A stretch of DNA of 37,061 nt from contig LBUF02000018.1 in the NCBI GenBank assembly GCA_000992445.2, positions 1 to 37,061 on the forward strand. Reading direction: 5' to 3'. The translations under genes were made by a program, and so were the position numbers. The notes under the pieces were generated by a model that made no database searches, had not been told where the DNA came from, and saw only the letters and a program-made list of their open reading frames with translations. Shown piece by piece: positions 6,461-35,518 of this stretch; the stretch's first letter is position 1, and the number at the start of each line of letters is the position of its first letter. Origin of the DNA: Parcubacteria group bacterium GW2011_GWA2_38_13b (lineage in GTDB: Bacteria; Patescibacteriota; Minisyncoccia; GWA2-38-13b).

Positions 6461-6462
6461 CA

Positions 6463-7514: not shown

Positions 7515-8396
7515 TTACAGTTTGTATCTGATTAAATCGTAAAGTTCCTGCCGTGTTTGCATTTTATCAATAAAGTTCTTTTGCGTGCCGGTTTCTTTAA
7601 GGCATTTAAAAAAATCTTCCATTGCTTTCATAGCTACCCGCATAGCGCTTACCGGAAAAATAACGGCGCTATAATCCATTTCTTTGAATTCTTGCGCTGT
7701 TATATATGGCGTTTTTCCGAATTCCGTCATATTGGCGATAAGCAGCGGTTTGGTCCAGTAAGGTTTGACGAGTTCATAAAAATACCTGAATTCTTCTTTT
7801 GTTTTCAGCGCTTCGGGGAAAATAATATCCGCGCCCGCTTCTTTGTATAGCATAGCTCGGTCTACGATTAAATTTACCGGGAAATTGCATCGCGCGTCCG
7901 TTCTCGCCACAATTAAAAAATCAGAATTTTCTCTAGCTTTTACCGCAGTTTTAATTCTCAATCTCATTTCTTTAATGCTTATTATTTCTTTTTCATTCAA
8001 ATGTCCGCATCTTTTCGGGAATACCTGGTCTTCTATTTGTATCCCCGCGGCTCCGGCTTTTTCCAGTCGTTTGACAGCGTTTTGCAAGTTTCTTGCAGAA
8101 CCAAAACCGGTATCTATATCAACAATTGTCGGTAAGCCCGTGGCTTGAGTTATATCTATCGCCATTTCCAGATATTTGGACGGACTAAAAACATATTTTT
8201 CATTCTTTTTTGACGAATATAATCCGCCGGTGTCGGGTAATCCCCAGCTTTGGTGAAGCGCCGCGCCGGAAACATAAAGCGCTCTAAATCCTATTTTTTC
8301 AGCAAGTTTTGCCGTTAATGGGTTAAATACTCCCGGCATAATAACAGTATCTTCTTGCATTAAACTTTTTAGCGTTGACGCTTTATTCGTTATCAT
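7515..8396 (-). CDS. prpB: 2-methylisocitrate lyase
   Basis: A 293-residue member of the isocitrate lyase/PEP mutase superfamily that splits 2-methylisocitrate into pyruvate and succinate, the last step of the methylcitrate cycle. The catalytic motif KRCGH spans residues 128-132 with the acid/base Cys130. The metal-binding strand is IVDIDTGFGS at 91-100 and the barrel start is VIMPGVFNPLTAKLAEKIGF. A segment near residues 59-78 differs from standard PrpB. The start overlaps the 3' end of prpD by 14 bp, so the genes are translationally coupled. Proximity to prpC and prpD makes a general isocitrate lyase role less likely. Confidence 0.93.
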   Translation of the reverse strand: MITNKASTLKSLMQEDTVIMPGVFNPLTAKLAEKIGFRALYVSGAALHQSWGLPDTGGLYSSKKNEKYVFSPSKYLEMAIDITQATGLPTIVDIDTGFGSARNLQNAVKRLEKAGAAGIQIEDQVFPKRCGHLNEKEIISIKEMRLRIKTAVKARENSDFLIVARTDARCNFPVNLIVDRAMLYKEAGADIIFPEALKTKEEFRYFYELVKPYWTKPLLIANMTEFGKTPYITAQEFKEMDYSAVIFPVSAMRVAMKAMEDFFKCLKETGTQKNFIDKMQTRQELYDLIRYKL

Positions 8397-9819: not shown

Positions 9820-9820
9820 A

Positions 9821-10945
9821 TTAATTTCTTCCTTCCATGCCAATGTATATTTGTTTTTCCGGTCCCGTATATTTTGCTCCGGGTCTGATAATACGATTAT
9901 TAGTTTGTTGTTCTATGATATGCGCTGTCCAGCCGGTCAATCGCGATAACGCAAAAATCGGCGTGAACAATTTTGTCGGAATGCCTAGCAGTTTATAAAC
10001 CGTGGCGGTATAAAAATCCAGATTCGGATAAAGTCCTTTTTCTCGCAATAAAATTTCTTCAATAATTTTGGACATCTCGTACCATTTTAATTCATTTTCT
10101 TCTTCAGAAAGTTTTTTAGCGTACGATTCAATTATGGGCGATCTTGGATCGCCGTTTTTATAAATCGGATGGCCGAAACCCATAATTTTTTGTTTTTTAA
10201 GTAAGGCGTTTTTTATCCATTTTTTTGTTTTTTTCTGGTCATTGATCTCTAAAAGCATTTGCATCACGGCTTCGTTTGCTCCGCCATGCAGCGGTCCTTT
10301 TAACGCGCCTACTGCCGAAAGAATACAAGAAAAATAATCGGAAAGAGTGGAAGCCGTGACGCGCGCATTAAAGGTGGAAGCGGCAAGTTCGTGTTCCGCG
10401 TAGAGTATAAGAGAAACATCAAATGCTTTTTTAGCAAGAGGTGTTAGCGGTTTAGAAGTGATGTTCCGTAAAGTATTTTCTGTGAACGATTCATTTTTTA
10501 ATGACTGGCCATTTTTAAAATCGCCGTTAGTTAACCATCTTAAAATTGATGATATTTTTGCCAAAAGATTTATTGCCAGTATTTCCGTTTTTTGGTTTAA
10601 GTTCATTGTTAAGCCGAAAAAAGAAACTGTAAATTTTAAAACATTCATTGGGTGCGCGTTTCGCGGAATTTGATCCAGTATAATTTTCAATTTAGTTGCT
10701 TCTTGGGTATATTGGCAAATTTGATTTTCCAAAAGACATTTGGAAAATTCCCGAAGTTCTCGGTAAACAGGCAAATGTCCTTTTATAAGCAGATACGCCG
10801 TTTCTTCAAAGCAGCTTTTTTTCGCTAAATCTTTAAGGTCGTATCCTCGGTACAGTATTGTTTTTAATTCATGGTCCAATTTTACAATTTTTGTTTTTGC
10901 GACTTCCATTCCTCTTAATCCCGTCGTCGTTGTTTTTTCTGGCAT
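9821..10945 (-). CDS. prpC: 2-methylcitrate synthase / citrate synthase family
   Basis: A 374-residue citrate-synthase-family enzyme. It condenses oxaloacetate with propionyl-CoA (or acetyl-CoA). The catalytic triad is visible: His220 in GPLHGGANEAV, His259 in GFGHPIYK, and Asp310 in NLDFYTA. The N-terminal TTGLRGMEVAKTKI and YRGYDLKDLA are typical of the short type II-like enzymes that include PrpC. Sequence alone does not separate citrate from methylcitrate synthase, but the position as first gene before prpD and prpB supports PrpC. AAGGGGGG precedes ATG by 7 bp. Confidence 0.9.
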   Translation of the reverse strand: MPEKTTTTGLRGMEVAKTKIVKLDHELKTILYRGYDLKDLAKKSCFEETAYLLIKGHLPVYRELREFSKCLLENQICQYTQEATKLKIILDQIPRNAHPMNVLKFTVSFFGLTMNLNQKTEILAINLLAKISSILRWLTNGDFKNGQSLKNESFTENTLRNITSKPLTPLAKKAFDVSLILYAEHELAASTFNARVTASTLSDYFSCILSAVGALKGPLHGGANEAVMQMLLEINDQKKTKKWIKNALLKKQKIMGFGHPIYKNGDPRSPIIESYAKKLSEEENELKWYEMSKIIEEILLREKGLYPNLDFYTATVYKLLGIPTKLFTPIFALSRLTGWTAHIIEQQTNNRIIRPGAKYTGPEKQIYIGMEGRN

Positions 10946-13438: not shown

Positions 13439-14602
13439 TTATATTTTATCCGTTAAATTTTCTTCTCGCGCTACAACATACCGTTGTATATTGTTGGCGC
13501 CTTCGTAAATGCGCGTTGCCATCGTGTCGCGGCAAAACATAGGAAGCGGAGATTCTTCTGTGTAGCCGATTCCGCCGCAGAACAGCATACAGTCGCTGGT
13601 AATTTTTACGGAATTTTCCGTAGAGAAAACTTTTGCCATCGATGCTTCTTTGGTGAATTTTTCGCCGGCATCTTTTAGGGAAGCGGCTTGTCGTATCAGT
13701 AGCCGCGCGGCATCAAGATAAATTGAAAAGTCTACCAAAGGGAAATAAATTCCTTGATTTTCAATGATTGCTTTTCCAAATTGTTTTCTTTGTTTGCAAT
13801 ATTTTACGGTCCAGTCCCAGGCGCCTTGCGATAATCCCAGCGCTTGCGCGGCTATGTAAAGCCGTCCGGTATCCAATGTCGTGAGCGCGACTCGCATACC
13901 TTTTCCTTTTTCGCCGAGCAGGTTTTCTTTTGGCACAAAATAATCTTCAAGGATAATTTCCGCGGTTGGCGAAGCCCATAAACCCGCTTTGTGTTCCATC
14001 TTTCCTATGCTGAAACCTTTCGTTGCGGTATCAACTATAAAAGCGGTTGGCTTGTTAGTTTCGCTATCTTTGGCAAAAACTATAATAAAATCGGCAAGCG
14101 ACGCATGAGTAATGAACATTTTAGAACCGTTCAATGTCCATCCGTCATCAATCTTTGTGGCGATAGTGGACATATTTCCGGCATCGGAACCGGCATTGGG
14201 TTCGGTCAGGCAATACGCTCCCAATTTTTCTCCGGACGCGACCGCCCGGAGATATTTTTCCTTTTGCGCTTCCGTTCCGAAAGCCAATAGCGGCGTTACG
14301 CTGAGAGAATTCAAAACCGCGAACATCAAACTGCCGCTGCCCCAAACTTTGGCAAACTCTTCCATAATTATCAGAGCAGATATGGTATCCATTCCTGCGT
14401 CGCCATATTTTTCCGGCACGGTAACTCCTAAAAATCCGGCTTTGCGTAATTTCGGCAAAACTATATCAAGAAGTTGTTTGTATTTTTCGCGCGTGAGTTC
14501 CGGTTTTTCGTATATTTTAATCAGCGGCGGAAATTCTTTATTGGCGAATTCTCGCGCCGATTCTTTAATCATTTTTTGCTCGTCAGTTAAATAGAAGTTC
14601 AC
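13439..14602 (-). CDS. Short-chain acyl-CoA dehydrogenase (canonical)
   Basis: A 387-residue FAD-dependent dehydrogenase that makes 2-enoyl-CoA from a saturated acyl-CoA. All family landmarks are intact: GVTVPEKYGDAGMD, AYCLTEPNAGSDAG, LNGSKMFITHA, KQRKQFGKAI (FAD contact), FCGGIGYTEES and the catalytic Glu367 in RIYEGANNIQR. The Glu position is that of short- and medium-chain enzymes (SCAD/butyryl-CoA dehydrogenase), not of isovaleryl-CoA dehydrogenase. The start is GTG, 6 bp after a strong AAGGAGG. Last gene of the synthetase/thiolase-like/DUF35 operon, 11 bp after the DUF35 gene. Butyryl-CoA or a related short or branched acyl-CoA is the likely substrate. Confidence 0.93.
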   Translation of the reverse strand: MNFYLTDEQKMIKESAREFANKEFPPLIKIYEKPELTREKYKQLLDIVLPKLRKAGFLGVTVPEKYGDAGMDTISALIIMEEFAKVWGSGSLMFAVLNSLSVTPLLAFGTEAQKEKYLRAVASGEKLGAYCLTEPNAGSDAGNMSTIATKIDDGWTLNGSKMFITHASLADFIIVFAKDSETNKPTAFIVDTATKGFSIGKMEHKAGLWASPTAEIILEDYFVPKENLLGEKGKGMRVALTTLDTGRLYIAAQALGLSQGAWDWTVKYCKQRKQFGKAIIENQGIYFPLVDFSIYLDAARLLIRQAASLKDAGEKFTKEASMAKVFSTENSVKITSDCMLFCGGIGYTEESPLPMFCRDTMATRIYEGANNIQRYVVAREENLTDKI

Positions 14603-14613
14603 AGTAAACCTCC

Positions 14614-15111
14614 TTATTTTTTAGGAACCCAAAAAATATCTAATATAGTGTTTGTTGGATTGTATATGCGAAATCCCGCGACTACTTTCATTCCGATATG
14701 CGGTTTGCCGTAAAGCAAATATCCTTTGAATATCGTGGCGAATTGCGGACCCAAGTCCACGTCTATCTGAAAATATGGATATTCCAATTCTATGCCTTCG
14801 CCTGGATATTCAACTTTCGTGAAAGTGTAAATTTTTCCGACAACCGGATTTGGCACTTCAATCCACGAAGTCGGTTGATTGCAATCCGGACAATCGGCGC
14901 GCGGAGGAAGCCATAATCGTTTTTCTTCGCAATCTTGATTTGAGCAATAAGTGGCAAAAAGTTTGCCCTTTTTTAATTCTTGGAAAAATTTTGAGAGTTT
15001 TCCGTAGGTGTGCATATGCATTAATGTTCTAGGCCACTTTACGACCATTTCCGGTTTTTCTTGTATTATTTCCAGTGGAGTTCCGATATATTTAATGATT
15101 TTTTCCGACAT
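14614..15111 (-). CDS. DUF35 / Zn-ribbon OB-fold protein, partner of the thiolase-like protein
   Basis: A 165-residue protein with a rubredoxin-like zinc ribbon (Cys pairs in CSNQDCEEKRLWLPPRADCP and DC) followed by an OB-fold domain containing VVGKIYTFTKVEYPGEGI and the end motif GMKVVAGFRIYN. DUF35 proteins form tight complexes with thiolase-superfamily enzymes: the archaeal acetoacetyl-CoA thiolase/HMG-CoA synthase complex, benzoylsuccinyl-CoA thiolase BbsAB, and the actinobacterial aldolase Ltp2 with ChsH2. Here it starts 10 bp after the thiolase-like gene with a GGAGA ribosome site. It would shape the CoA-ester site of the complex rather than catalyse alone. Confidence 0.88.
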   Translation of the reverse strand: MSEKIIKYIGTPLEIIQEKPEMVVKWPRTLMHMHTYGKLSKFFQELKKGKLFATYCSNQDCEEKRLWLPPRADCPDCNQPTSWIEVPNPVVGKIYTFTKVEYPGEGIELEYPYFQIDVDLGPQFATIFKGYLLYGKPHIGMKVVAGFRIYNPTNTILDIFWVPKK

Positions 15112-15121
15112 AATTTTCTCC

Positions 15122-16528
15122 TCAAAACGCTTTTTCCAGTAATCCTGCCGTCACATGAGAACCAACGCCGGCGTGGGATATCCATAGGGCCTTTTTGGCG
15201 TTCGGCACCTGGAGCGATTTCCAGTCATTGGGTTTTTGTCTTGGTTTTCCTTTATATTCTCCAACATCTGCCCATTCATTCCATATTTTGGGATCACCGT
15301 GGAATTTATCGTATTTGTTCTGAATTTGCCATAAACATTCTATTCCTTGGAAAATTCCAGTCGCGCCGACGGCATGCATTGTCCCTAAAAGACCGCCGGA
15401 AAGATTAGATGGACATTTTCCGCCGAAATAAGCGTCCCCCGATTCTATATAATCGGTTTCTTTGCCATAAGGGCGTAATCCTATGTCACCATAAGTTTGT
15501 AAGTCAGAAATAGTGAAAGCATCGTGAAGTTCAACTAAATCTAAATCTTCAAGGGGATTTTTTATTCCAGCCATTCCGTATGTCATATAAGCCGCGAAAC
15601 GCGCCGCCAAGAAACTTTCAAATCCCGGCCAACGGCCGTTTTGCGCGGTCATTTCTCTTAGTAATTTATCATACATTCCCGGTTCTTCGTGGGGAAGCAG
15701 GGGAATATCCATGTGCCTTCTGTCGGCTACGCGCAAAGTGTGTGTTCCGCCGGCAATATAAAGGCGGCAAGGTTTATCGCTTAATTTGTAGGCCAGTTCT
15801 TCGTTGCAAAGAAGCATTGATGCGGCTCCCACGCTCATAGCGCAACATTCCAAGACCCTTAACGGATCGCAGATAATTTTTCCCGCGAGCACTTCTTCAA
15901 TTGTGTGTTTTCCGCTTTGTTGGGCGTAGGGAGAATAATAAGCGTAAAGCCGGTTTTTAACCGCGATTTTTGCTCGGGTTACTTCGGAAACTTTATACAT
16001 TTCTGTAAATCGCCGCGCCATAGGAGCGTAATAAGCGGCATACATTCTGGCAAGTCGTGTTTCAAAATCTTTGCAAGCTGCTGTGGAAATATAAAAATTT
16101 CCGGTTTTAGTATCTACTTCATCCATTCTTTCCCATCCCATAGCGAGGGCGCAATCGGCATATCCGGAAGCGATTGCCATTGCAGCGGTTAAAATAGTAC
16201 TTCCTCCGGTAGCTCCGCCGGTTTTCACGCCGATATTCGGCAAAGGATCAAGTCCTAAATAATCATGAACTTTCGCTTCGCATAAAAGTTGGTCTTGAAA
16301 ATGGTCGGCAAATTCTCCGTAAGCGGCAAAATTCAGCAATCCTTTTATGTCTTTTAAGGACATTTTCAGGTCGTTTTCCTGCATCATTTGCCGGAATGCT
16401 ATGGCACAGAGTTCTTCAAGTTTGTATTCCGGAAATTTTTTCCTAAAAGGCGTTAGTCCGCCCGCTACGACATAAACCGGTCGTTGCCATTTTGGGATTC
16501 TTAAATTTCTTTTTCCAAATTTAATCAC
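15122..16528 (-). CDS. Thiolase-superfamily protein lacking the nucleophilic cysteine (DUF35-associated; possible retro-aldolase)
   Basis: A 468-residue protein of the SCP-x/archaeal thiolase clade. The N-terminal half contains VKTGGATGGSTILTAAMAIA; standard members have Cys where this protein has Gly105 (C-A-T-G becomes G-A-T-G), so ordinary Claisen thiolysis through an acyl-Cys is doubtful. The C-terminal half keeps ELHDAFTISD and HAVGATGIFQ (the thiolase HDAF and H-x-x-G-A-T-G sites). Known Cys-less, DUF35-bound relatives include Ltp2, a retro-aldolase that releases propionyl-CoA from steroid side chains. Start GTG 16528 with AAAGGAG about 11 bp upstream. Order: synthetase, this gene, DUF35, acyl-CoA dehydrogenase. 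Aldolase function is a hypothesis. Confidence 0.8.
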   Translation of the reverse strand: MIKFGKRNLRIPKWQRPVYVVAGGLTPFRKKFPEYKLEELCAIAFRQMMQENDLKMSLKDIKGLLNFAAYGEFADHFQDQLLCEAKVHDYLGLDPLPNIGVKTGGATGGSTILTAAMAIASGYADCALAMGWERMDEVDTKTGNFYISTAACKDFETRLARMYAAYYAPMARRFTEMYKVSEVTRAKIAVKNRLYAYYSPYAQQSGKHTIEEVLAGKIICDPLRVLECCAMSVGAASMLLCNEELAYKLSDKPCRLYIAGGTHTLRVADRRHMDIPLLPHEEPGMYDKLLREMTAQNGRWPGFESFLAARFAAYMTYGMAGIKNPLEDLDLVELHDAFTISDLQTYGDIGLRPYGKETDYIESGDAYFGGKCPSNLSGGLLGTMHAVGATGIFQGIECLWQIQNKYDKFHGDPKIWNEWADVGEYKGKPRQKPNDWKSLQVPNAKKALWISHAGVGSHVTAGLLEKAF

Positions 16529-16536
16529 CTTTTCAC

Positions 16537-18549
16537 TTACTCCTTTCTTTTGCAGGCAATAATTTTTATCATATTCAGTAATTCTATTTCTTGTAATACG
16601 CTCGGGTTCTCAATGGACGAAATGTCGTCAATTTTTTCGTGCAAATAAACTTTTTTTATCAATTTACGCGGAATTTTTCCGGAACGGGTTTTTGGCAATG
16701 CCGAAATAAAATAAATATTGTCCGGACAAAGAATTTTTCCGAGTTTTTCAGAAACGTATTTTTTTAACAATTCTTCGGCGGTTTCTTCTCCGGTTAATTT
16801 CGGCCATCGGACAGAAAAACAAACAAAGCATATTATTTTTTCTCCTTTTAATTCGTCGGGTATGCCGATAGCCACTGCTTCTTTCACTGATTCGTTGCTC
16901 ATTAAACATTCTTCTATTTCCGACGGACCAACGCGTCGGCCGGAAACTTTAATTACATCATCTGATCGTCCGTAAAGAAACCAAGAATCATCTTCGTCAA
17001 TTTTGACTAAATCGCCGTGATGCCAGATGCTTTTCCGGCGTGAAGAATATTTCCAGTGGGAAAAATAAGTTTCAATATACCGTTCTTTGTCGTTGTCGCC
17101 GATAAAACCTTTAGTCATTGAAGGAAATGGCTTTTTGCAAACCAAATGTCCTGTTTCGCCGCGTATCGACTTTCCCGTGTCGTCAAAAACATCAATATCC
17201 ATTCCAAGTCCCGGTCCTCCAAGAGCGCAGGGTTTAAGCGGCATTATTGGGAGAGGGGAAAGAAAGCATCCGAAAATTTCCGTTCCGCCGGAAATATTGA
17301 TTATCGGACATTTTTCTCCGCCGATATTTTTAAAATACCAAAGGTATGATTCTTTGTCCCACGATTCGCCGGTTGATCCGAGTATCCTTAAATATGACAA
17401 GTTATGTTCGCGCAAAAATTCATTACCGAAGTTTTTTAACATTCGTATCGCCGTTGGCGCAATCCCAAAAGTATTAACTTTGTATTTTTCAATAATTTCA
17501 AAAAGGCGATGATGATTAGGCCAATCGGGTTTTCCTTCAAAAATAACATAAGTTCCTCCAAGGCATTGGACGCCGATTATTTCCCATGGCGCCATCATCC
17601 ATCCCAAATCGGTATACCAAAAGAAAACATCTTTTTCTTTATAATCAAAATAGTATTTTATTTCTTTCGCGGTTTGAGTTAACGCGCCGGCGTGAGTATG
17701 TATTACGCCTTTTGGTTTTCCGGTTGTTCCGGAAGTGAATAGGATTAAGGCGGGATGTTCCGAATCAAGAATGGCTGTTTTTGTTGTTTTTATGTCAGCA
17801 CCGAGTTTGATAAAATCGTCCCAAAAAATATCGCGTTTTTCGTCCATTTCCGTTTTTTTGTTGAGTCGTTTAATGACAACGATTTTTTTAAGCGTAGTAA
17901 TGATTTTAACCGCTTCATTGATTTTATTTTTCAATTCAATTTGTTTGCCGCGAAGCGGGAACCCATCGCTCGTAAAAAGAATTTTCGCTTCCGCGATTTT
18001 TAGCCGTTCCGCCAGCGCTTGCGGTCCGAATCCGGACATAATCGGAAGCGCGACGGCTCCGATTTTCATAGCCGCGAACATCGCAATAATCGTTTCCGGC
18101 GTAAACGACATATAAATTCCCACGACATCGTTTTTGCTAATGCCGGATTTTACCAAAGATTTGGCAATAGAATTTACTTTGTCGTACAGTTCTTTATAGG
18201 AAATTTTTTTTGAAATTCCATCATCGCTTTCCCAATAAAAAGCGGTTTTATCGCCGTTTCCGTCGCGAATATGGCGGTCAAGGCAGTTGTGAACGATGTT
18301 GATTTTTCCATCCAAAAACCAGCGCGTCCACGGCATACCGTTTGTGTCATCGTAAAGCGCGCGATATTTTTTAAACCATTCAATTTTTAGGTCTTTAACG
18401 CAGGCGTTCCAGAACCATTTAATGTCGTCAGTGGAACGTTTTATGAGCTCCTGATATGTTTTGATTTTCCATCTTTTCATAAATAGCGCGATATTGCTTT
18501 TATTCAAATAGTCGCCATGCGGCTGCCAAATAAAGTCGTTTTCTTTCAT
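16537..18549 (-). CDS. AMP-forming acyl-CoA synthetase, acetyl-CoA-synthetase-like with altered acyl pocket
   Basis: A 670-residue adenylate-forming enzyme that activates a carboxylic acid to its CoA ester. Motifs present: FTSGTTGKPKGVIHTH (P-loop), TDLGWMMAPWEIIG, GDLVKIDEDDSWFLYGRSDD (A7/A8) and PKTRSGKIPRKLI with the catalytic Lys. The N-terminal ACS-type cap (NCLDRHI) supports the acetyl/propionyl/acetoacetyl-CoA synthetase clade. In acetyl-CoA synthetase the acyl pocket is closed by Trp414 of TWWQTE; the equivalent here reads ISGGTE, so Trp is replaced by Gly and a larger acid is expected. ATG 18549 follows GGAGGAAAT and is preferred to the upstream TTG. First gene of its operon. Confidence 0.88.
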   Translation of the reverse strand: MKENDFIWQPHGDYLNKSNIALFMKRWKIKTYQELIKRSTDDIKWFWNACVKDLKIEWFKKYRALYDDTNGMPWTRWFLDGKINIVHNCLDRHIRDGNGDKTAFYWESDDGISKKISYKELYDKVNSIAKSLVKSGISKNDVVGIYMSFTPETIIAMFAAMKIGAVALPIMSGFGPQALAERLKIAEAKILFTSDGFPLRGKQIELKNKINEAVKIITTLKKIVVIKRLNKKTEMDEKRDIFWDDFIKLGADIKTTKTAILDSEHPALILFTSGTTGKPKGVIHTHAGALTQTAKEIKYYFDYKEKDVFFWYTDLGWMMAPWEIIGVQCLGGTYVIFEGKPDWPNHHRLFEIIEKYKVNTFGIAPTAIRMLKNFGNEFLREHNLSYLRILGSTGESWDKESYLWYFKNIGGEKCPIINISGGTEIFGCFLSPLPIMPLKPCALGGPGLGMDIDVFDDTGKSIRGETGHLVCKKPFPSMTKGFIGDNDKERYIETYFSHWKYSSRRKSIWHHGDLVKIDEDDSWFLYGRSDDVIKVSGRRVGPSEIEECLMSNESVKEAVAIGIPDELKGEKIICFVCFSVRWPKLTGEETAEELLKKYVSEKLGKILCPDNIYFISALPKTRSGKIPRKLIKKVYLHEKIDDISSIENPSVLQEIELLNMIKIIACKRKE

Positions 18550-18582
18550 ATTTCCTCCGTATTGATTTTTCAAATAACTTTT

Positions 18583-18691: not shown

Positions 18692-19579
18692 TTAATCAAT
18701 AAAAAGCGGTTCGCGCTTTTCCAGAAATGATCCTATGCCCTCATGAGCGTCCTGATAAATAAATGTTTCTGAAAATATTTGCCGTTCATATTTCAACCCG
18801 TCTTCAATAATAAAGTTCGGCTGATCGTTCATTAATATTTTATCTATCATTTTTTCGGCAAATCGGGAATAGTGGCGATTTCTGGAAGCAGCTATCAGTT
18901 TTTCTCTTTTTTTTCTTTTTTCCTTTGAATCAAGCGAATCTTTTTTGATTCCATCGATCAAGCCCATTTCAAAGGCTTCATCGGCGTCAAAGAAGCTGCC
19001 AGTTTTCATATAATGCGTGAATTTTTCTTTATCAATTTTATTTTTGAACAATTTCCACCATTGCGTTCCGCCCCACCCGGGAATTAATCCGAGAGTTGTC
19101 TCCGGCAGACCAAAAATCGTGCTTGAAGAAGCTATTCTTTTGTGGCAAGCCATTGCCAATTCCCAGCCGCCGCCAAGAGCGAAGCCGTTAATAATGGCAA
19201 TTGCTTCTTCTTTCAATCTTGGGCATTGATTGATAAGGAGCAATGTTTCTTGTCCTAATTTGGAAAAATAATATGCTCTATCTCTTGCCATTTTTTCCGG
19301 TTTAAACCATAGCATATCGCTGAATTCTTTGATATTTGCGCCAGCCGCGAAATCTTTCCCGAATCCTTTGATGTAAATTTTATTTATAATTTCGTTGCAG
19401 AAAATCCGATTTTTATTAAAATGGTAGAGAAAATTATACAGTTCATCCATTAAATCTCTGCACAAAACAGGGATAACCATCTGCCGTTCGACATCGAATG
19501 TTTTATCGATGCCTAAAAATAAAATGTGTAAATTTTTATCGCTGTCAATACCGCATTCTACATATTTAGTTTTCATCAT
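18692..19579 (-). CDS. Enoyl-CoA hydratase (crotonase superfamily), paralogue 2
   Basis: A 295-residue crotonase-fold protein, clearly a paralogue of the hydratase at 5573-6460. Both share the long N-terminal segment (here FLGIDKTFDVERQ), the oxyanion segment FAAGADIKEF and the same tail (EGIGSFLEKREP). Both catalytic glutamates are present, in GGGWELAMACHKRIA and LPETTLGLIPGWGGTQ, so hydratase activity is expected. A basic insertion (KEKRKKREK) lies near residue 220. Two ATGs in tandem follow AAAGGAAG; either could start. Third gene of the TIM-barrel/PanB-like operon. It probably acts on a different enoyl-CoA from paralogue 1; the substrate cannot be read from sequence. Confidence 0.88.
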   Translation of the reverse strand: MMKTKYVECGIDSDKNLHILFLGIDKTFDVERQMVIPVLCRDLMDELYNFLYHFNKNRIFCNEIINKIYIKGFGKDFAAGANIKEFSDMLWFKPEKMARDRAYYFSKLGQETLLLINQCPRLKEEAIAIINGFALGGGWELAMACHKRIASSSTIFGLPETTLGLIPGWGGTQWWKLFKNKIDKEKFTHYMKTGSFFDADEAFEMGLIDGIKKDSLDSKEKRKKREKLIAASRNRHYSRFAEKMIDKILMNDQPNFIIEDGLKYERQIFSETFIYQDAHEGIGSFLEKREPLFID

Positions 19580-19616: not shown

Positions 19617-20546
19617 TTATTTTTTTAACATTTTTTGTAGTTTTTCGTATTCGCCAGGTTTCATAGAATAAATATGTTTTTCTTCCGGGAATTTGCATTG
19701 CTTAATATCGCTAACATATTCTTTGTATGCCTCTCCCGCCAAATAAGCGAATCCGGAGTTTTTGATTTTTTGTTGCATAGTTTTTTTTAGATACAGTGAT
19801 ATATATTCAGACGTCATATAACATTTAATAAATTTTATCTTAAATAAATTAAAACTTTCAAGTATATCGCAGGAAAGCAATAATTGTCCGTCGCATTTGC
19901 GTCCGGCGCCGATGCTGAAAACCGGTATTTTTAACTTTTTTGTTATCATCTCAGCGCATTCTTCGGTGACCTTTTCCAATAATATCGCGAACGCGCCGGC
20001 TTTTTCCAGCGCTTTGGCGTCTGTAAGTAATGCGATTGTTTCTTCCGCTGTTTCACCGTAAACCGTTCCCCATTTATCTTCGGGGATTGTTTGCGGGGTA
20101 AGTCCGATATGACCCATTACTTTTATGCCATAGTCAGTAATAGCTTTTACTTGGTCGGCCATTTTAATTCCGCCTTCAAGTTTTATGGCGTCGCAACCGG
20201 CTTCGTCTATAAAACGTTTCGCTTTAAAGATTCCCTCTACTATATCCCTGTCATCTTTTCCGCCGTAAGCGCCTTCGGGCATATCGCCAACTATAAAAGT
20301 TTCCGGAGCGCCCATTCGTACGGCTCTTGCGTGTTTAAGCATACAGTTCATTGTTGGAGGATTAGTCGCGGTGCTTTTTTCTCCGTAAATCGCCATATTT
20401 ACCGAATCGCCGACTAAGATCCAGTCAATTTTTGCTTTTTCCGCTTGTCGCGCCATCCAATTTTCATACAAAACAACGGCCGCGATCGGTTCATTTTTTG
20501 CTTTCATTTCCCGAAAATCTTCAATCGTTAATTTCTTTTTTTCCAT
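19617..20546 (-). CDS. Ketopantoate hydroxymethyltransferase-like protein (PanB family)
   Basis: A 309-residue TIM-barrel protein of the PanB family. The expected metal and catalytic residues are in place: VGDSVNMAIYGE, VGDMPEGAYGG, DAIKLEGG, and the catalytic Glu in ILLEKVTEE, with GHIGLTPQ and IGAGRKCDGQ between and after them. Canonical PanB adds a hydroxymethyl group from methylene-THF to 2-ketoisovalerate for pantothenate. Its C-terminus (after residue 225) is longer and divergent from PanB, and no panC, panD or panE is nearby. It sits in a catabolic operon with a hydratase, so a different aldol or retro-aldol reaction is possible. ATG 20546 follows GAGG; a GTG at 20552 is an alternative. 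Confidence 0.8.
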   Translation of the reverse strand: MEKKKLTIEDFREMKAKNEPIAAVVLYENWMARQAEKAKIDWILVGDSVNMAIYGEKSTATNPPTMNCMLKHARAVRMGAPETFIVGDMPEGAYGGKDDRDIVEGIFKAKRFIDEAGCDAIKLEGGIKMADQVKAITDYGIKVMGHIGLTPQTIPEDKWGTVYGETAEETIALLTDAKALEKAGAFAILLEKVTEECAEMITKKLKIPVFSIGAGRKCDGQLLLSCDILESFNLFKIKFIKCYMTSEYISLYLKKTMQQKIKNSGFAYLAGEAYKEYVSDIKQCKFPEEKHIYSMKPGEYEKLQKMLKK

Positions 20547-20553
20547 ATTCACC

Positions 20554-21516
20554 TCATTTTATGATAGGAATTTTTAAATCCGCCGGCGCCCAGTCGGAAA
20601 TCTTAAAATTCGTGCCGTATTTTTCATTGCCTTTATTTACATTTTCAATAATTTGCCGCGCCGCTTCCACCGTCCCTAGCTTATGTTCCAGTAATTCATT
20701 TTGCGGGAAATCCGGAGCATACATTTTAAGCGCCGGACCTGGTTCGTCTTTGAAGTAAACGGGCGAAGCCACTTTGACTATTTCATATGCTTCTTCAATT
20801 CTGTTGTTTCCGCCCCATTCATCAAATATTCTTGAATGAATGTCCAATGGAAAATCGTCAAAACAATGACGAATTTCGCCGATCTGTTCTACGGTTAAAT
20901 CGGTTATCGGATTCATTGTTACGCCAAAAACAGGCAATTCATCGCAATAGAAATTTCGTATTAAACTTAATACCAAATCGGCATCGGCCGGATTGGCGTT
21001 TCCGTCAAAAACGGAAAGTTTTAAAACTATGTCTTTGGGAAAACATTCCATATAAGCGCATTTCATTAAACTATTCAGCATACCTTTGCGCCAAATTAAA
21101 AATCCGCGAAAACCCAAACTATATAAGTACATTATATCGTCGAAATAATCTTTTGTTGCATCCTGTCCTCTCCAGCTCATCCCGGAAATTATTCCTTGCG
21201 GCGATTTTGCTTGAATGGCCGTATTCTGATAAGTTGGTCGCGTAAACGGCGTCATAATGACTTCAATCCCGTAATCCGCGCCGATTTTGGCGAATTCACG
21301 GAGTTCTCGTTCTTTATAAAAACCGCATAAAATTTTATTATTCATCATAGAATTTTTTCTCGGCACTCCTGCTCCTCGGACACAGCAAATCGCTTTGTGC
21401 CACGGTATTTTTGCTTGTTTAAACGCCTTGGCGGTTTTTAAAAATATATCCGCGCTCTCAATGCCGCTCGTTTCAACTCTATAATGCGCGCCATCAGGAA
21501 AAGTATATCTAACCAT
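20554..21516 (-). CDS. TIM-barrel-like protein, possibly U32-peptidase-related; function unknown
   Basis: A 320-residue protein whose alternating strands and helices suggest a TIM barrel: YGIEVIMTPFTRP, FRGFLIWRKGML, DIVLKLSVFDGNANPADADL, PVFGVTMNPITDLTVEQIGE, FPLDIHSRIFDEWGG and SPVYFKDEPGPALKMY. The pattern, especially the D-L-T-V-E-Q-I strand end and the N-P-A-D/A-D motif, recalls proteins annotated as U32 peptidase-like, but I cannot confirm a catalytic site. AAGGAGG precedes ATG. It is the first gene of an operon with the PanB-like enzyme (next stop/start 5-8 bp apart), so the two probably act in one pathway. No beta-keto acid cleavage enzyme signature is visible. Confidence 0.6.
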   Translation of the reverse strand: MVRYTFPDGAHYRVETSGIESADIFLKTAKAFKQAKIPWHKAICCVRGAGVPRKNSMMNNKILCGFYKERELREFAKIGADYGIEVIMTPFTRPTYQNTAIQAKSPQGIISGMSWRGQDATKDYFDDIMYLYSLGFRGFLIWRKGMLNSLMKCAYMECFPKDIVLKLSVFDGNANPADADLVLSLIRNFYCDELPVFGVTMNPITDLTVEQIGEIRHCFDDFPLDIHSRIFDEWGGNNRIEEAYEIVKVASPVYFKDEPGPALKMYAPDFPQNELLEHKLGTVEAARQIIENVNKGNEKYGTNFKISDWAPADLKIPIIK

Positions 21517-21756: not shown

Positions 21757-23319
21757 ATGGATGAAAAAAATAAAGAAAAATTGTTTTGCAAAAAACCGGT
21801 TGATGAATTTGATTATTCGCTGCAATTGGGTGATCCGGGGCAATACCCTTATACTCGTGGAATTCATCCGCGAATGTACGCGGAACGGCTTTGGACGATG
21901 CGGCAATTTTCTGGATTTGGTTCCGCCGAGGACACTAATAAAAGATTCAGGTATTTATTGGAACACGGCGAAACGGGATTTTCCACGGCATTTGATATGC
22001 CGACACTTTTCGGGAAAGATTCAGACAATCTTGTTTATGGAAAAGAAACGGGTTTATGCGGAGTTGCTATCGATACTTTGGCGGATATGGAAATTCTTTT
22101 TAATGAAATTGATTTGAATCCGCCGATTTCCACTTCAATGACAATCAACGCGCCGGCCATAATTTTATTTGCGATGTATTTGGCGGTTGCGGAGAAAAAA
22201 GGCGTTGATTGGAAAAATTTGCGCGGAACAATCCAAAACGACATTTTGAAGGAATATATCGCGCAAAAGGAATGGATTTTTCCGCCGGAACCGTCTATGC
22301 GGCTTATTACTGATATTATTGAATTTTGCGTGAAATATGTTCCGCAATGGTATCCGATAAGCATCAGTGGTTATCATATTCGCGAAGCAGGTTCAACAGC
22401 GGCGCAAGAATTGGGTTTTACTTTGCGTGACGGCATTGAGTATGTTGAATGGGCGATAAGAGCTGGCTTGAAAGTCGATGATTTCGCGCCGCGACTTTCT
22501 TTCTTTTTTGATTCTTGCGAGAATTTTTTTGAAGAAATCTCTAAATTTCGGGCTGCTCGACGGATGTGGGCGCGGATAATGAAGGAAAGATTTCACTCCG
22601 AAAATGATAAGTCGCGCCAGCTGCGTTTTCATACACAGACAAGCGGTCTCAGTTTACAGGCGGTTGAGCCGGAAAACAATGTAATACGTACAACACTTCA
22701 AGCGTTGGCCGCTGTTTTGGGTGGCACTCAATCGCTTCATACCAATTCACGCGATGAGACATTATGTTTGCCTACCGAAGAAGCGGTAAAAATCGCTTTG
22801 CGGACACAGCAAATTATTGCTTATGAAAGCGGAATAATAAATGCGGTTGATCCGTTAGGCGGTTCTTATCACATTGAGGATTTAACGAATAAATTGGAAG
22901 CCGAAGCAATGGAGTATATTAAAAAAATAGATGAAATGGGCGGAATGATCGAGGCCATTGAACAAGGTTATCCGCAAAGAGAAATAAGACGCTCCGCTTT
23001 CGAACGCGCTAAAAAAACAGCAATGGCGGAAAAGGTTGTTGTCGGTGTAAATAAATTTCCAACGAAAGAAAAATTGATCATTCCGGTTTTAAAAATTGAT
23101 CCGGAAATCCACATAAAACAAGTTAAGCGTCTTAATGAAATTAAACAAGAGCGCGATAATTTCAAGGTTAAGCAATGTCTTGAAAATATCAGTTGCGCCG
23201 CAGCGTCAAAAGACAATCTTGTGTTTCCGGTCATTGAAGCAGTAAGAAATTACGCGACAATCGGCGAGATTTGCATGGCATTTGAAAAAGTATGCGGAAG
23301 ATACGAGGAGAAAGTTTAA
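21757..23319 (+). CDS. icmA: B12-dependent acyl-CoA mutase catalytic subunit, isobutyryl-CoA mutase-like
   Basis: A 520-residue catalytic (TIM-barrel) subunit without its own B12 domain. Aligned by eye to methylmalonyl-CoA mutase (MCM), RLWTMRQF has Phe51 where MCM has substrate-specific Tyr89, and QNDILKEYIAQ has Gln170 where MCM has Arg207. Phe/Gln is the published pair of isobutyryl-CoA mutase; hydroxyisobutyryl-CoA mutase has Ile and an extra Asp, here Ala78 in FSTAFD. The catalytic His is His207 in ISGYH, and Arg44, Arg49 and Gln160 are kept. It would interconvert isobutyryl-CoA and n-butyryl-CoA. The stop is 12 bp before the B12/GTPase fusion gene, AAAGGAG between. Automatic annotation would probably call it MCM. 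Confidence 0.85.
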   Translation: MDEKNKEKLFCKKPVDEFDYSLQLGDPGQYPYTRGIHPRMYAERLWTMRQFSGFGSAEDTNKRFRYLLEHGETGFSTAFDMPTLFGKDSDNLVYGKETGLCGVAIDTLADMEILFNEIDLNPPISTSMTINAPAIILFAMYLAVAEKKGVDWKNLRGTIQNDILKEYIAQKEWIFPPEPSMRLITDIIEFCVKYVPQWYPISISGYHIREAGSTAAQELGFTLRDGIEYVEWAIRAGLKVDDFAPRLSFFFDSCENFFEEISKFRAARRMWARIMKERFHSENDKSRQLRFHTQTSGLSLQAVEPENNVIRTTLQALAAVLGGTQSLHTNSRDETLCLPTEEAVKIALRTQQIIAYESGIINAVDPLGGSYHIEDLTNKLEAEAMEYIKKIDEMGGMIEAIEQGYPQREIRRSAFERAKKTAMAEKVVVGVNKFPTKEKLIIPVLKIDPEIHIKQVKRLNEIKQERDNFKVKQCLENISCAAASKDNLVFPVIEAVRNYATIGEICMAFEKVCGRYEEKV

Positions 23320-23331
23320 AGGAGATGGGCG

Positions 23332-24480
23332 ATGAAAAAGAAAAAAAGGATTATTTTAGTTAAAGCCGGTTTGGACGGCCATGATCAAGGGATAAATGTT
23401 ATAAAGGATTTTTTAATTGAAGAAGGTTATGAAGTATTTTATTTTGGTCTTTATCGCCAGATGCGCGATATCGCCGAAATGGCGATTCAGGAAGGCGTTG
23501 ATTTTATCGGGTTAAGCGTTCATAATGCCGCTCACTTTGAATATACCAAAGAAATTTATGATTATTTGAAAAAACATAATGCTCTTGATATAGCGATGGT
23601 TGTCGGAGGAATTATTCCCGAAGAAGATAAGATTGTTCTTGAAAAAGATTTTGGGGTGAAACATGTTTTTGTTTCCGGAACACACGATGCGAATTTGAAC
23701 GACATTAAAGATTTTTTCAGAAAAAACTCAGGAAGAAATATAAATCCGAAGCTTATTTTAGAAAATAAAAGTAAGAATAATCTTGGCCTGTTTATTTCCG
23801 AACTTGCCAATGGTTCCGAGGAAGCATTGGGGATTGTCAAAAATTTGTTGTGCAAAGATGTTTTAACGATTGGCATTACTGGCCATCAAGGCGTTGGCAA
23901 AAGTACTTTGATAGACCATCTTATTACCCAATTCCGAATTTTAAACAAAAAAGTCGGCGTTATAGCGGTTGATCCCAGCGATTGTATTTTCGGCGGAGCG
24001 TTTCTCGGAGGAGACAGGACGAAAATGTGGCGCCATCTTTTTGATGAGAATGTCCATATTTACAGTATGGCGACTAGGGACGGACATGGCGGGATTGCCG
24101 ACACGACCGGATTGGCGGTAAAGGCGATGAAAATAGTCGGTTGCGATATTGTTATCGTGGAAACAATCGGCGTAGGACAAGATCAAACGGCGGTGCGGAC
24201 GATTGCCGATATGACCGGATTAATTTTAACTCCGGACACCGGCGAAGATCAGGTTTACAAATCAGGCATTATGCAGGTTGCCGATTTTTATGTGATAAAT
24301 AAAACGGATATTATGCCGGCTTTGCCGTTGGAAAAATTTTTGAATGAAATGTTGGATAATAAGGTAAATTTCAGCGGTAAGTCAAAATCGCGGCCGTTTA
24401 TTATTAGCACAAATAATAAAAATTGTTTGGGCATCCAAAAATTGTCGGAAAAAATATTGGAATACGGGAGAAATTTATGA
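23332..24480 (+). CDS. Fusion of B12-binding domain (mutase small subunit) and MeaB/MeaI-type GTPase chaperone
   Basis: A 382-residue two-domain protein. Residues 5-130 are a cobalamin-binding Rossmann domain: LDGHDQG (Asp15-x-His17-x-x-Gly20, His17 being the cobalt ligand), GLSVHNAAH and VVGGIIPEED. Residues about 150-382 are a G3E-type GTPase like MeaB/ArgK: Walker A GHQGVGKST (184-192), VIAVDPSDCIFGGAFLGGDR, IVETIGVGQDQT and the guanine motif NKTD. IcmF enzymes carry B12, GTPase and mutase domains in one chain; here the mutase domain is a separate preceding gene, so this pair is a split IcmF. Loading and repair of B12 would be built into the small subunit. The stop overlaps etfB (ATGA). 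Confidence 0.9.
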   Translation: MKKKKRIILVKAGLDGHDQGINVIKDFLIEEGYEVFYFGLYRQMRDIAEMAIQEGVDFIGLSVHNAAHFEYTKEIYDYLKKHNALDIAMVVGGIIPEEDKIVLEKDFGVKHVFVSGTHDANLNDIKDFFRKNSGRNINPKLILENKSKNNLGLFISELANGSEEALGIVKNLLCKDVLTIGITGHQGVGKSTLIDHLITQFRILNKKVGVIAVDPSDCIFGGAFLGGDRTKMWRHLFDENVHIYSMATRDGHGGIADTTGLAVKAMKIVGCDIVIVETIGVGQDQTAVRTIADMTGLILTPDTGEDQVYKSGIMQVADFYVINKTDIMPALPLEKFLNEMLDNKVNFSGKSKSRPFIISTNNKNCLGIQKLSEKILEYGRNL

Positions 24481-25226
24481 ATATCATAGTTTGCGTGAAA
24501 CAAGTGCCGGATATTGAAAAGCCCGTAAAGATTGCCGGAAAAGTCATAGATGAAAGTTCCGATTTCGTTCTTAATCCCTTGGACGAACATGCGATTCAGC
24601 AGGCGGTTATTGTTAAAGAAAAATTAGGCGGTAAAATTATTGTTTTGACTTTAGGGCCGGAACGCGCCAAGCAAGCATTATTGAGATGTCTTGCGCGGGG
24701 AGCGGACGAAGCGATTCATTTGAAAACTGACAATGATTGCAATTTTGATTCGACTGCCGTGTCTGTTATTTTGGCGGAAAAAATCAAGACATTGCCTTTT
24801 GATATAATTTTTTTCGGAGGTAAGGCCGTTGATACTAATAGCGGCGATTGCGGCGTTCAGGTTGCGAAAATTTTTGGCATTCCCTGTATTCCGGAAATTA
24901 TCAAATTGGAAATTGATAATGAAAAAGTCGTTGCCGTAAGGCAGGTGGATAATGGAGAAGAAATGGTTGAATGTTCGCTTCAGGCGGTTTTTACCTGCCA
25001 GAAGGGAATAAATGAATTGAGTATTTTGCCGCTCCCAAAAATTATGCAGGCCAAAAGAAAACCATTGAAGGTTGAAGATGTTTGCGTGAATAATAGATTT
25101 TCAGAAATCATTGATCTTGAAGTTTTGCCCAATAAAAGAGGTGGTCTTATTCTAGAAGGAAATCCCGAGGAACAAGTTAAGCGATTGGTTGAAATTTTCA
25201 AAAAACAGGGGATTTTGAGGGAATGA
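24477..25226 (+). CDS. etfB: Electron transfer flavoprotein beta subunit
   Basis: A 249-residue ETF beta subunit: MNIIVCVKQVPD start, LNPLDEHAIQQAV, VLTLGPERAKQALLRCLARG, the FAD/AMP-proximal FFGGKAVDTNSGDCGVQVA, and the family tail motif IMQAKRKPLK. With EtfA it accepts electrons from acyl-CoA dehydrogenases. ATG 24477 overlaps the preceding stop (ATGA) and its own TGA overlaps the etfA start, so the three genes are translationally coupled. The frame extends upstream into the previous gene, but the domain start fits 24477. Confidence 0.95.
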   Translation: MNIIVCVKQVPDIEKPVKIAGKVIDESSDFVLNPLDEHAIQQAVIVKEKLGGKIIVLTLGPERAKQALLRCLARGADEAIHLKTDNDCNFDSTAVSVILAEKIKTLPFDIIFFGGKAVDTNSGDCGVQVAKIFGIPCIPEIIKLEIDNEKVVAVRQVDNGEEMVECSLQAVFTCQKGINELSILPLPKIMQAKRKPLKVEDVCVNNRFSEIIDLEVLPNKRGGLILEGNPEEQVKRLVEIFKKQGILRE

Positions 25227-26218
25227 AAATGGAAAACATTTTTGTTTTTATTGAACTTGAATCAGGCGCGATTACCAAATCAGGCATTGAGGTTTTGGGA
25301 AAAGCGCGCGAACTTGCCGACAAATACAGCAAACAAGTGGTAGGATTGGTGCTGGGCAATGATTTCAATAATTTTGCCGGTTTGCTTGATTGTTTGGCGC
25401 GATTAGGAGCTGATGAATTTTTACTGGCAGAAAGCGATAAATTTACGGATTACAACAGCGAGATATACGGGAAAATTATTTGCGGGGAAATTGAAAAATT
25501 AAAACCGCAAATTGTCCTTTTGGGTTCTTCCAAGATTGGCAAGGAACTTGCCGCGCAAATTTCCGCGAAATTTTTAAGTTGTTGTTTTCAGGATTGCGTT
25601 GACATTGACATTGAAGGCGATTTTTTGAAAGCAAAGCGGTTGGTTTTGGCGGGGAAGGCATTCGTGACTTTAAAAAGCAAATGTTCGCAATTTCAAGTTG
25701 CGACATTGCGGCAGGGAATTTTTCAGCCAAAAATCATAGGTAAAGACGCGGAAATTACGCGAATGGATGTTCCCGCTGATTTAGTTAGCAGAATTATTAG
25801 AAAAGAATTTACTGGCAGAACTTCCGGCAAAGTTTCTTTATTGGGAGCAAAAATTATTGTGTCCGGCGGCAGGGGGATGAAAAGCGGGGAAAATTTCAAA
25901 ATTCTTGAAGAGTTAGCTGATGTTTTTGGTGGAGCCGTAGGCGCTTCTCGTGGCGCGGTTGATCTTGAATTTCGTGTTTTCGATGACCAAGTGGGTTTAA
26001 CTGGGAAAACAGTATCGCCGCAAATTTATATCGCTTGCGGCATTTCCGGCGCGCCACAGCATTTGGCAGGGATTACACAGGCAAAATTTATAGTCGCGAT
26101 AAACAAAGATTCGGGGGCGCCGATATTTAAAGCGGCGGATATGGGAATCGTCGGGGATTTGTTTGAAATCGTTCCTCTTTTGACGAAATCGTTGAAAAAT
26201 TTGAAGGGAGAAAAGTAA
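25223..26218 (+). CDS. etfA: Electron transfer flavoprotein alpha subunit
   Basis: A 331-residue ETF alpha subunit. The C-terminal FAD domain shows the signature IIVSGGRGMKSGENFKILEE, then FGGAVGASRGAVD (Arg contacting FAD), QVGLTGKTVSPQIYIACGIS with GAPQHLAGI, and the closing AINKDSGAPIFKAADMGIVG. No N-terminal ferredoxin extension is present, so it is an ordinary dehydrogenase-linked ETF rather than a clear bifurcating type. Overlaps etfB by 4 bp. The electron acceptor is probably the EtfD-type protein encoded 1.3 kb downstream on the other strand. Confidence 0.95.
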   Translation: MKMENIFVFIELESGAITKSGIEVLGKARELADKYSKQVVGLVLGNDFNNFAGLLDCLARLGADEFLLAESDKFTDYNSEIYGKIICGEIEKLKPQIVLLGSSKIGKELAAQISAKFLSCCFQDCVDIDIEGDFLKAKRLVLAGKAFVTLKSKCSQFQVATLRQGIFQPKIIGKDAEITRMDVPADLVSRIIRKEFTGRTSGKVSLLGAKIIVSGGRGMKSGENFKILEELADVFGGAVGASRGAVDLEFRVFDDQVGLTGKTVSPQIYIACGISGAPQHLAGITQAKFIVAINKDSGAPIFKAADMGIVGDLFEIVPLLTKSLKNLKGEK

Positions 26219-26220
26219 AT

Positions 26221-27447
26221 ATGTTTGGACGAATAAAAAGAAAAGTATTTATAGTTTTTGCTTGCCGGACGCCTATAGGAAATTTCGGCGGAATGTTTAA
26301 GTACGATTCCGCTGTTGATTTAGGCGCGACGGCGCTTCACGGCGTTATGCGTAGAGTCGATGCGAATAATGAATATTTTTTGGGTTCGTATGATTTTATG
26401 AGGTGTAATGTTTTTATGGGGAATGTTTTGTCAGCCGGTTTGGGACAAAATCCGGCGCGACAGGCGGCGCATAAAGCGGGTTTTTCATGGGAATCGCCAT
26501 GCGTGACAATCAACAAAGTTTGCGGTTCCGGAATGCAGGCGATAATTTGCGCTTACGATGCCATAAAAAGCGGTCGGATTGATTTGGCATTTGCCGGCGG
26601 AATGGAAAGTATGACGAACTCGCCTTATTTCATTAGGCGTCAGTTGGAAGTTACGGGGAAGGGTAATTCAAAACTTATGGTTGGCGATATGGCAATTGAT
26701 TTTGGCAAGGATGCTTTTTGTGTCGATTCTATGATGCGCGATGGTTTATCTGATGCTTACGGTCATAGAAAAATGGTTGAAATCGCCGATGAATGCGCTA
26801 AAAGATTTGGAATATCAAGAGGAGATCAGGATGAATATGCCAAATTAAGCAATGAACGGGCGATTCACGCGTTTCAAAATCGTATGTTTGAAAATGAAAT
26901 TGTTCCGGTTGAAAATTTTTTCAAAGACGAAGGAATGAATAAGTTTAATCCGGAAAAAATTCTAACATTAAATCCCATTTGCGATGGAGGGAGCATAACT
27001 GCCGCCAGCGCTTCAAAGATAAGCGATGGAGCGGCGGCTTTGATGATTGCGTCCGAGGAAATAGTTGAGAGATTTGGAATAACTCCAATAGCGGAAATTG
27101 TTGATACACTAGAATATGGCGGATTGCCGGAAGAATTTCCAATTGCGCCGTCAAGAGCCATAGGTCGGTTACTTGAACAAAATAAATTAATACTTAAAAA
27201 CATTGGTTTATTTGAAATCAACGAGGCATTTGCCGTGGTGCCTCTTATAGCTATAAAAACATCGGAAATACCTATTGAAAAAATTAATATTCACGGCGGA
27301 GCCGTGGCGTTGGGGCATCCGATTGGGGCATCAGGCGCAAGAATTGTGGTGACGCTGGTTCATGCGTTGAGCAGTAAAGAATTAGGTATTGCTTCCGTTT
27401 GCATCGGCGGCGGCGAAGCACTGGCGATGCTTGTAAGAAAAGTTTAA
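26221..27447 (+). CDS. atoB: Acetyl-CoA acetyltransferase (canonical thiolase)
   Basis: A 408-residue type II thiolase, last gene of the mutase/ETF operon, 2 bp after etfA. All catalytic sites are present: Cys101 in INKVCGSGMQA, NEAFA, His in VALGHPIGASGAR and the second Cys in VCIGGGEALAM. It would split acetoacetyl-CoA into two acetyl-CoA at the end of butyryl-CoA oxidation, or run in reverse. In contrast to the thiolase-like protein at 15122-16528, this one is complete. A terminator follows 16 bp after the stop. Confidence 0.95.
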   Translation: MFGRIKRKVFIVFACRTPIGNFGGMFKYDSAVDLGATALHGVMRRVDANNEYFLGSYDFMRCNVFMGNVLSAGLGQNPARQAAHKAGFSWESPCVTINKVCGSGMQAIICAYDAIKSGRIDLAFAGGMESMTNSPYFIRRQLEVTGKGNSKLMVGDMAIDFGKDAFCVDSMMRDGLSDAYGHRKMVEIADECAKRFGISRGDQDEYAKLSNERAIHAFQNRMFENEIVPVENFFKDEGMNKFNPEKILTLNPICDGGSITAASASKISDGAAALMIASEEIVERFGITPIAEIVDTLEYGGLPEEFPIAPSRAIGRLLEQNKLILKNIGLFEINEAFAVVPLIAIKTSEIPIEKINIHGGAVALGHPIGASGARIVVTLVHALSSKELGIASVCIGGGEALAMLVRKV

Positions 27448-35516: not shown

Positions 35517-35518
35517 TA

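Follow-up and report, generated by a model that had tools for sequence, protein, structure and literature searches.

A DUF35-paired thiolase-fold protein lacking catalytic cysteines in a Patescibacterium: a candidate C-C lyase of branched-chain acyl-CoA metabolism

The stretch of DNA analyzed here (37,061 nucleotides, hereafter the window) covers positions 1-37061 of a contig of 53,656 bases from Parcubacteria group bacterium GW2011_GWA2_38_13b, whose genome (0.875 Mb, 38.9% GC) is 95% complete. Its minus strand carries a thiolase-fold protein, THL0, in which a Gly occupies the place of the nucleophilic Cys required of an active thiolase, and which is encoded next to a DUF35 protein and genes of acyl-CoA metabolism (Table 1). 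What reaction could such a pair perform? A first-pass annotation, which was correct in its coordinates and in the neighbors it named (ligase, acyl-CoA dehydrogenase (ACAD), hydratase and PrpB/PrpD/PrpC), had proposed an Ltp2-like retro-aldolase that releases propionyl-CoA. We consider that THL0 and DUF35 have about an even chance of forming a thiolase-fold C-C lyase of the aldolase type, acting in short branched-chain acyl-CoA metabolism. For this widespread and uncharacterised family, an aldolase is more likely than the ordinary thiolase of its annotation.

Table 1. Features of the window discussed in the text
Feature	Position	Strand	Remarks
THL0, thiolase-fold protein without catalytic cysteines	15122..16528	-	Gly105; HDAF 335-338; His385
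DUF35 partner	14614..15111	-	zinc ribbon C56, C61, C74, C77 and OB fold
ACAD1, short-chain/short-branched-chain type acyl-CoA dehydrogenase	13439..14602	-	11 bp downstream of DUF35
ACSA, AMP-forming acyl-CoA ligase	16537..18573	-	type intermediate between acetate-CoA and acetoacetate-CoA ligases
ECH2, enoyl-CoA hydratase (crotonase family)	18692..19579	-	118 bp upstream of ACSA
PanB-type ketopantoate hydroxymethyltransferase	19617..20552	-	in the THL0 gene run
320-aa protein	20554-21516	-	1 bp upstream of panB
Methylcitrate cycle genes	PrpB 7515-8396, PrpD 8383-9843, PrpC 9821-10945	-
Second enoyl-CoA hydratase and 3-hydroxyacyl-CoA dehydrogenase	5573-6463 and 6463-7371	-	outside the THL0 operon
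B12-dependent acyl-CoA mutase, large subunit	21757..23319	+	Phe/Gln at specificity positions
B12-binding domain fused to MeaB-like GTPase	23332..24480	+
EtfB, EtfA and ordinary class-I thiolase	24423..27447	+	thiolase at 26221-27447
Membrane FeS oxidoreductase (HdrD/TfrB-like)	27516-29375	-	near the ETF genes
595-aa protein with many CxxC motifs	30505-32292	-
Cytochrome c and heme-copper-oxidase-like genes	34827-36856	+	apparent NorC/NorB pair

Fold, active site and partner of THL0

The THL0 open reading frame starts with GTG and encodes 468 amino acids, which match Thiolase_N (43 bits) and Thiolase_C_1 (70 bits) of Pfam, each above its cut-off. When the AlphaFold2 model (pLDDT 86.7, with low confidence for residues 151-164) was compared to the PDB with Foldseek, the top matches were SCP2-thiolase, archaeal acetoacetyl-CoA thiolase (ACAT) and BbsB, with a probability of 1.00. 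A profile search also places the protein in the SCP2/ACAT type, and its assignment to this type of thiolase fold is certain.

In a joint alignment, ordinary thiolases display the nucleophilic Cys and the HDCF and GHP motifs, whereas THL0 carries Gly105 (K102-T-G-G105-A-T-G-G), HDAF (H335-D-A337-F) and M384-H385-A-V-G-A-T-G. The replacement of the nucleophile by Gly105, with HDAF and HxxGATG kept, had been recognized in the first-pass annotation and is confirmed here. The observation is in fact stronger than originally stated, since the second catalytic Cys, overlooked before, is also lost: Ala337 stands at the HDCF position of the SCP2 type and Ser451 at the CxG position of class I enzymes. 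Gly105, Ala337, His335 and His385 do not vary among 52 aligned relatives from many phyla, and this invariance, together with the existence of at least 315 relatives in public genomes, indicates that the pattern did not arise by chance. In thiolases, the His pair builds the oxyanion hole that accommodates the enolate of the thioester. Judging from the alignment, THL0 retains this pair without the nucleophile, the usual acid/base or the Tyr residues of Ltp2; candidates for its acid/base are Cys152, His452 and His458, all invariant in the 52 sequences.

The neighboring open reading frame matches Pfam weakly when searched alone (E 0.016). Among its 23 aligned relatives, however, all match OB_ChsH2_C (best 3.7e-10) and 20 match zf-ChsH2, and the profile of the family finds the DUF35 chain of PDB entry 6esq_E (2e-11). 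The partner proposed at the outset is thus a true DUF35 protein of the ChsH2 C-terminal type, with a four-Cys zinc ribbon and an OB fold.

Comparison with characterized thiolase-fold systems

The best NCBIfam match of THL0, over its full length, is NF004982 / PRK06365 (504.5 bits, cut-off 695), a "thiolase domain-containing protein" model with no assigned function, which would be at most a sister subfamily. The BbsB model scores 129.9 bits against an equivalog cut-off of 750, and these values led us to reject orthology to either. The nearest fold and profile matches, SCP2-thiolase and archaeal acetoacetyl-CoA thiolase (6hsp, 6esq, 7yvy), have in common with THL0 the His pair of the HDxF and GHP motifs, but differ from it by their two catalytic Cys and by GHP, which is MHA in THL0. 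Benzoylsuccinyl-CoA thiolase BbsAB (7pxp) also consists of a thiolase fold bound to DUF35, but unlike THL0 it has a Cys nucleophile.

Two aldolases, Ltp2 and Sal, are likewise paired with DUF35 proteins (PMC12329534). The steroid aldolase Ltp2-ChsH2(DUF35) (TcLtp2, PDB 6ok1) resembles THL0 in its thiolase fold, its Cys-less nucleophile site, its DUF35 partner and its dehydrogenase-hydratase-aldolase operon context; no MaoC hydratase or steroid genes of that system are linked to THL0. The likeness does not extend to the active site. TcLtp2 employs Tyr294 (of YDHF) and Tyr344 in catalysis, and CtSal employs Tyr302 and Cys304 (PMC12329534). In THL0, His335, His385 and Ala337 align with Tyr294, Tyr344 and His296 of TcLtp2, so that the Tyr residues of Ltp2 are not matched; in a Vibrio protein of Ltp2 type, aligned alongside, YDHF is present and the His385 column holds a Tyr. 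Overall identity to Ltp2 is 18%, at rank 23 of the fold search. The bile acid aldolase Sal-Shy(DUF35) (CtSal, PDB 9myr) shares with THL0 a Gly at the nucleophile position and a DUF35 partner, but its Tyr302 and Cys304 correspond to His335 and Ala337, and the zinc site of Shy is Cys3His where that of the THL0 partner has four Cys. On these catalytic residues, orthology to Ltp2 or Sal was rejected. Of the retro-aldolase first put forward, the Cys-less site, the DUF35 protein, the operon and the ACAD, hydratase and ligase neighbors stand, whereas a close likeness to Ltp2 is not supported: the analogy covers the logic and the partners but does not extend to the catalytic residues or to membership of the family.

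Genes around the pair in the window and in relatives

THL0 lies in a minus-strand run that reads unknown protein, PanB, ECH2, ACSA, THL0, DUF35 and ACAD1, with gaps of 1, 37, 118, 8, 10 and 11 bp. At the position of TWWQTE in acetyl-CoA synthetase, whose Trp restricts the pocket to short acids, ACSA carries ISGGTE. ACAD1 is of the short-chain/SBCAD type and scores lower against isovaleryl-CoA dehydrogenase; the two ACADs of the organism have been published as SBCAD and GDH (PMC5220378). The class-I thiolase of the window has its Cys (INKVCGSGMQ). The membrane FeS oxidoreductase is the probable electron acceptor of ETF, and a similar gene lies near THL0 in Zixibacteria (L052). No branched-chain 2-oxoacid dehydrogenase (BCKDH) was found as an acyl-CoA source in the genome beyond a 22-bit fragment. 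Neither a biotin carboxyltransferase nor an HMG-CoA lyase was found in the genome, which thus shows no sign of a branched-chain route that involves carboxylation.

PanB exceeds its NCBIfam cut-off (211.6 versus 207.55 bits), and panC was not found in the genome; this orphan hydroxymethyltransferase sits beside a possible aldehyde-releasing step. The 320-aa protein has no Pfam, NCBIfam or PDB match, and the 595-aa protein has no NCBIfam match. The apparent NorC/NorB pair is unusual for the class.

The mutase was compared in one alignment to human methylmalonyl-CoA mutase, and the Tyr89 and Arg207 of the latter are replaced by Phe and Gln. Ile and Gln stand at these positions in 2-hydroxyisobutyryl-CoA mutase, and the combination of Phe and Gln characterizes isobutyryl-CoA mutase. 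On these residues the published name, methylmalonyl-CoA mutase, was rejected, and an isobutyryl-CoA mutase type appears more likely. The adjoining B12-binding/MeaB fusion resembles IcmF split after its G-protein domain. Phe/Gln recurs in mutases adjoining THL0 at three other loci (L038, L046, L052) and in all five THL0-bearing Paceibacteria genomes examined, while two Paceibacteria genomes that lack THL0 encode true mutases of the Tyr/Arg kind. Among 384 Paceibacteria genomes, a mutase is present in 8 of the 9 with THL0 and in 12 of the 375 without (Fisher p 1e-10; kinship ignored, 4/5 families), and an ACAD in 9/9 versus 51/375 (p 3e-8, kinship again ignored). Isobutyryl-type mutases are also linked to THL0 in Syntrophaceae, Deltaproteobacteria and Zixibacteria, and the recurrence of this linkage in Paceibacteria, Syntrophaceae and Zixibacteria points to a role of THL0 in short branched-chain acyl-CoA metabolism.

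In 84,980 scanned species genomes, at least 315 THL0 relatives were confirmed; the pair is also encoded by the named strain Desulfocarbo indianensis SCBM (L051). The best 80 of these are 58-74% identical and belong to Desulfarculales, Syntrophaceae, WOR-3, Dehalococcoidia, Acidobacteria, Phycisphaerae, Zixibacteria, Myxococcales and others; their loci (1.14 Mb in all) were surveyed for neighbors within 3 kb. DUF35 adjoins THL0 in 78 of the 80 loci. In most of them the pair is alone, often as a stand-alone operon and in many phyla, and the remaining neighbors include ACAD (19/80), enoyl-CoA hydratase (8/80), CoA ligase (7/80) and mutase (4/80). Neither a 3-hydroxyacyl-CoA dehydrogenase nor a Cys-thiolase was found in any of the 80 loci. 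The order is TetR-THL0-DUF35-acetoacetate:CoA ligase-ACAD in Dehalococcoidia (L039); XRE regulator, pair and ACAD in Desulfarculales; and ETF-ACAD-mutase-THL0-DUF35-ACAD in one Syntrophaceae and one Zixibacteria locus. Two Paceibacteria (G107, G063) have ACAD-MeaB-mutase-2-oxoacid dehydrogenase genes-PaaI-like-DUF35-THL0, with an additional PrpB-like gene in G107. At L110, in a genome of the class other than that of the window, a PrpB-like gene adjoins THL0, and in the L110 and L112 clusters an ACAD is present just beyond the stretches taken. A PrpD-like gene near THL0 in L066 had no NCBIfam support at E 1e-30 and was set aside.

In the tree, THL0 forms its own clade (support 100/100) on a long stem, and the Ltp2 references are long branches. 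Only 9 of the 384 Paceibacteria genomes carry the family, GW2011_GWA2_38_13b among them. The copy of this genome branches separately from those of its class, inside a clade (support 100/100) formed by Deltaproteobacteria, WOR-3, Dehalococcoidia and their relatives; it is mostly 67-76% identical to the sequences there, compared with 50-57% to its counterparts in other Paceibacteria. Tree position and identities suggest that the gene was acquired from a donor beyond the class, which disagrees with the published conclusion that the enzymes of this organism were not recently gained from outside the CPR (PMC5220378). Contamination of the contig is unlikely, given that eight further Paceibacteria carry the family and that a curated genome in the literature has matching gene content, namely 'Candidatus Parcunitrobacter nitroensis' (0.884 Mb, 37.8% GC; PMC5220378). 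Shared genes include two ACADs, PrpB/C/D, the mutase, ETF, the FeS oxidoreductase and the apparent NorBC, and the window very probably derives from that organism or a near twin.

Proposed reaction and competing explanations

The operon of hydratase, ligase, THL0, DUF35 and ACAD, together with the lack of 3-hydroxyacyl-CoA dehydrogenase and Cys-thiolase genes in the 80 loci, fits a sequence of desaturation, hydration and direct C-C cleavage. For THL0 we infer the aldolase chemistry, substrate, products and direction as follows. A branched acid would be activated by ACSA, or a branched acyl-CoA would come from a 2-oxoacid; ACAD1 would desaturate it and ECH2 would hydrate the enoyl-CoA to a 3-hydroxyacyl-CoA, which THL0-DUF35 would cleave directly in a retro-aldol reaction. 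His335 and His385 would hold the enolate oxygen of the thioester, no acyl-enzyme would form since the Cys is absent, and a short acyl-CoA and an aldehyde or ketone would be released. An alpha-methyl-beta-hydroxyacyl-CoA would give propionyl-CoA, which could enter the methylcitrate cycle, while a beta-methyl substrate would give acetyl-CoA and a ketone. In this genome, the alpha-methyl case gains weight from the presence of methylcitrate genes, from a dehydrogenase of SBCAD type and from the absence of carboxylases; in other lineages, the acetoacetate ligase favors the beta-methyl case. Release of propionyl-CoA, as first annotated, is thus plausible and the likeliest outcome in the window, and is suggested mainly by the neighboring methylcitrate genes of one genome. 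Other points speak against this reading: by alignment, the Tyr of Ltp2 and the Tyr/Cys of Sal are absent from THL0, and a 2-methyl-3-hydroxyacyl-CoA, being a secondary alcohol, could be handled by an ordinary dehydrogenase and thiolase, both of which are encoded in the window. Since the pair is alone in most of the 80 loci, the choice of substrate leans on a minority of them.

The alternative with the most substance, although we regard it as rather unlikely, is a lyase of leucine or isovalerate breakdown acting on a beta-methyl tertiary alcohol, converting 3-hydroxyisovaleryl-CoA to acetone and acetyl-CoA or HMG-CoA to acetoacetate and acetyl-CoA. Tertiary alcohols are not oxidisable to the 3-keto form, which would account for the lack of a linked 3-hydroxyacyl-CoA dehydrogenase, and the ligase that follows the pair in Dehalococcoidia would suit acetoacetate. 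An HMG-CoA lyase above the family cut-off is missing from 9 of 13 other THL0 genomes, but four do have one and the MAGs are incomplete; moreover, without a carboxyltransferase this genome has no HMG-CoA route, and ACAD1 is not best matched to isovaleryl-CoA dehydrogenase. Forward aldol or Claisen-like synthesis of a branched hydroxyacyl-CoA, from an acyl-CoA enolate and an aldehyde or ketone, is improbable: it would use an identical active site, the chemistry is reversible, and the pair often stands alone, but the linked ligase, dehydrogenase, ETF and TetR- and XRE-type regulators have a catabolic look.

There is a similarly small chance that THL0 is still a thiolase or acyltransferase that operates through Cys152, Cys228 or Cys229. 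All three are invariant in the 52 sequences, and Cys152 falls within the low-confidence loop of the model; on the other hand, the Cys152 column is Asp in ACATs, and Cys228 and Cys229 have Cys counterparts in ordinary SCP2 thiolases, which possess their own nucleophile as well, so that they appear not to be substitutes. Loss of the second catalytic Cys and the separate normal thiolase of the genome also argue against it. A (methyl)malonyl-CoA decarboxylase, by analogy with Cys-less ketosynthases, seems very improbable even though the two enolate-holding His are kept and TbSLP has trace malonyl-CoA decarboxylase activity, since CtSal has none (PMC12329534), the genome has no biotin carboxyltransferase to supply substrates, and the mutase is not of the methylmalonyl type. 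Just as little is to be expected of a catalytically inert acyl-CoA-binding or scaffold protein: loss of both Cys would agree with it, but conservation is very strong, including the oxyanion-hole His and both neighboring loops, and no active thiolase partner subunit is linked.

The published 'Ca. Parcunitrobacter nitroensis' model holds two acetyl-CoA acetyltransferases and a methylmalonyl-CoA mutase, with propionyl-CoA carboxylase and epimerase missing (PMC5220378). One of these "acetyltransferases" lacks both catalytic Cys and the mutase looks to be of the isobutyryl type, so that the organism may have no need of the carboxylase and epimerase it lacks. A literature search on Smithella propionate dismutation as the pathway gave nothing usable. 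More tentatively, THL0-DUF35 could represent a widespread type of acyl-CoA aldolase that is new and defined by a distinct Gly / HDAF / His site, with which anaerobes, and even a 0.9 Mb Patescibacterium, might cleave branched hydroxyacyl-CoAs without carboxylase, hydroxyacyl-CoA dehydrogenase or thiolase, beside an isobutyryl-CoA-type mutase. Several hundred genomes of many phyla hold THL0 relatives whose best curated match reads just "thiolase domain-containing protein", and the function of one THL0-DUF35 complex would assign the whole family.

A further Cys-less thiolase family that occurs in Paceibacteria (L012:9985-12265, L115:7718-9966, L018-L026) shows the Gly, HDAF and His pattern of THL0. 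Its gene is followed by that of a longer protein, which in L025 combines a ChsH2-type zinc ribbon with an SCP2-like domain, and in L012 an acetoacetate-CoA-ligase-like gene comes after the pair.
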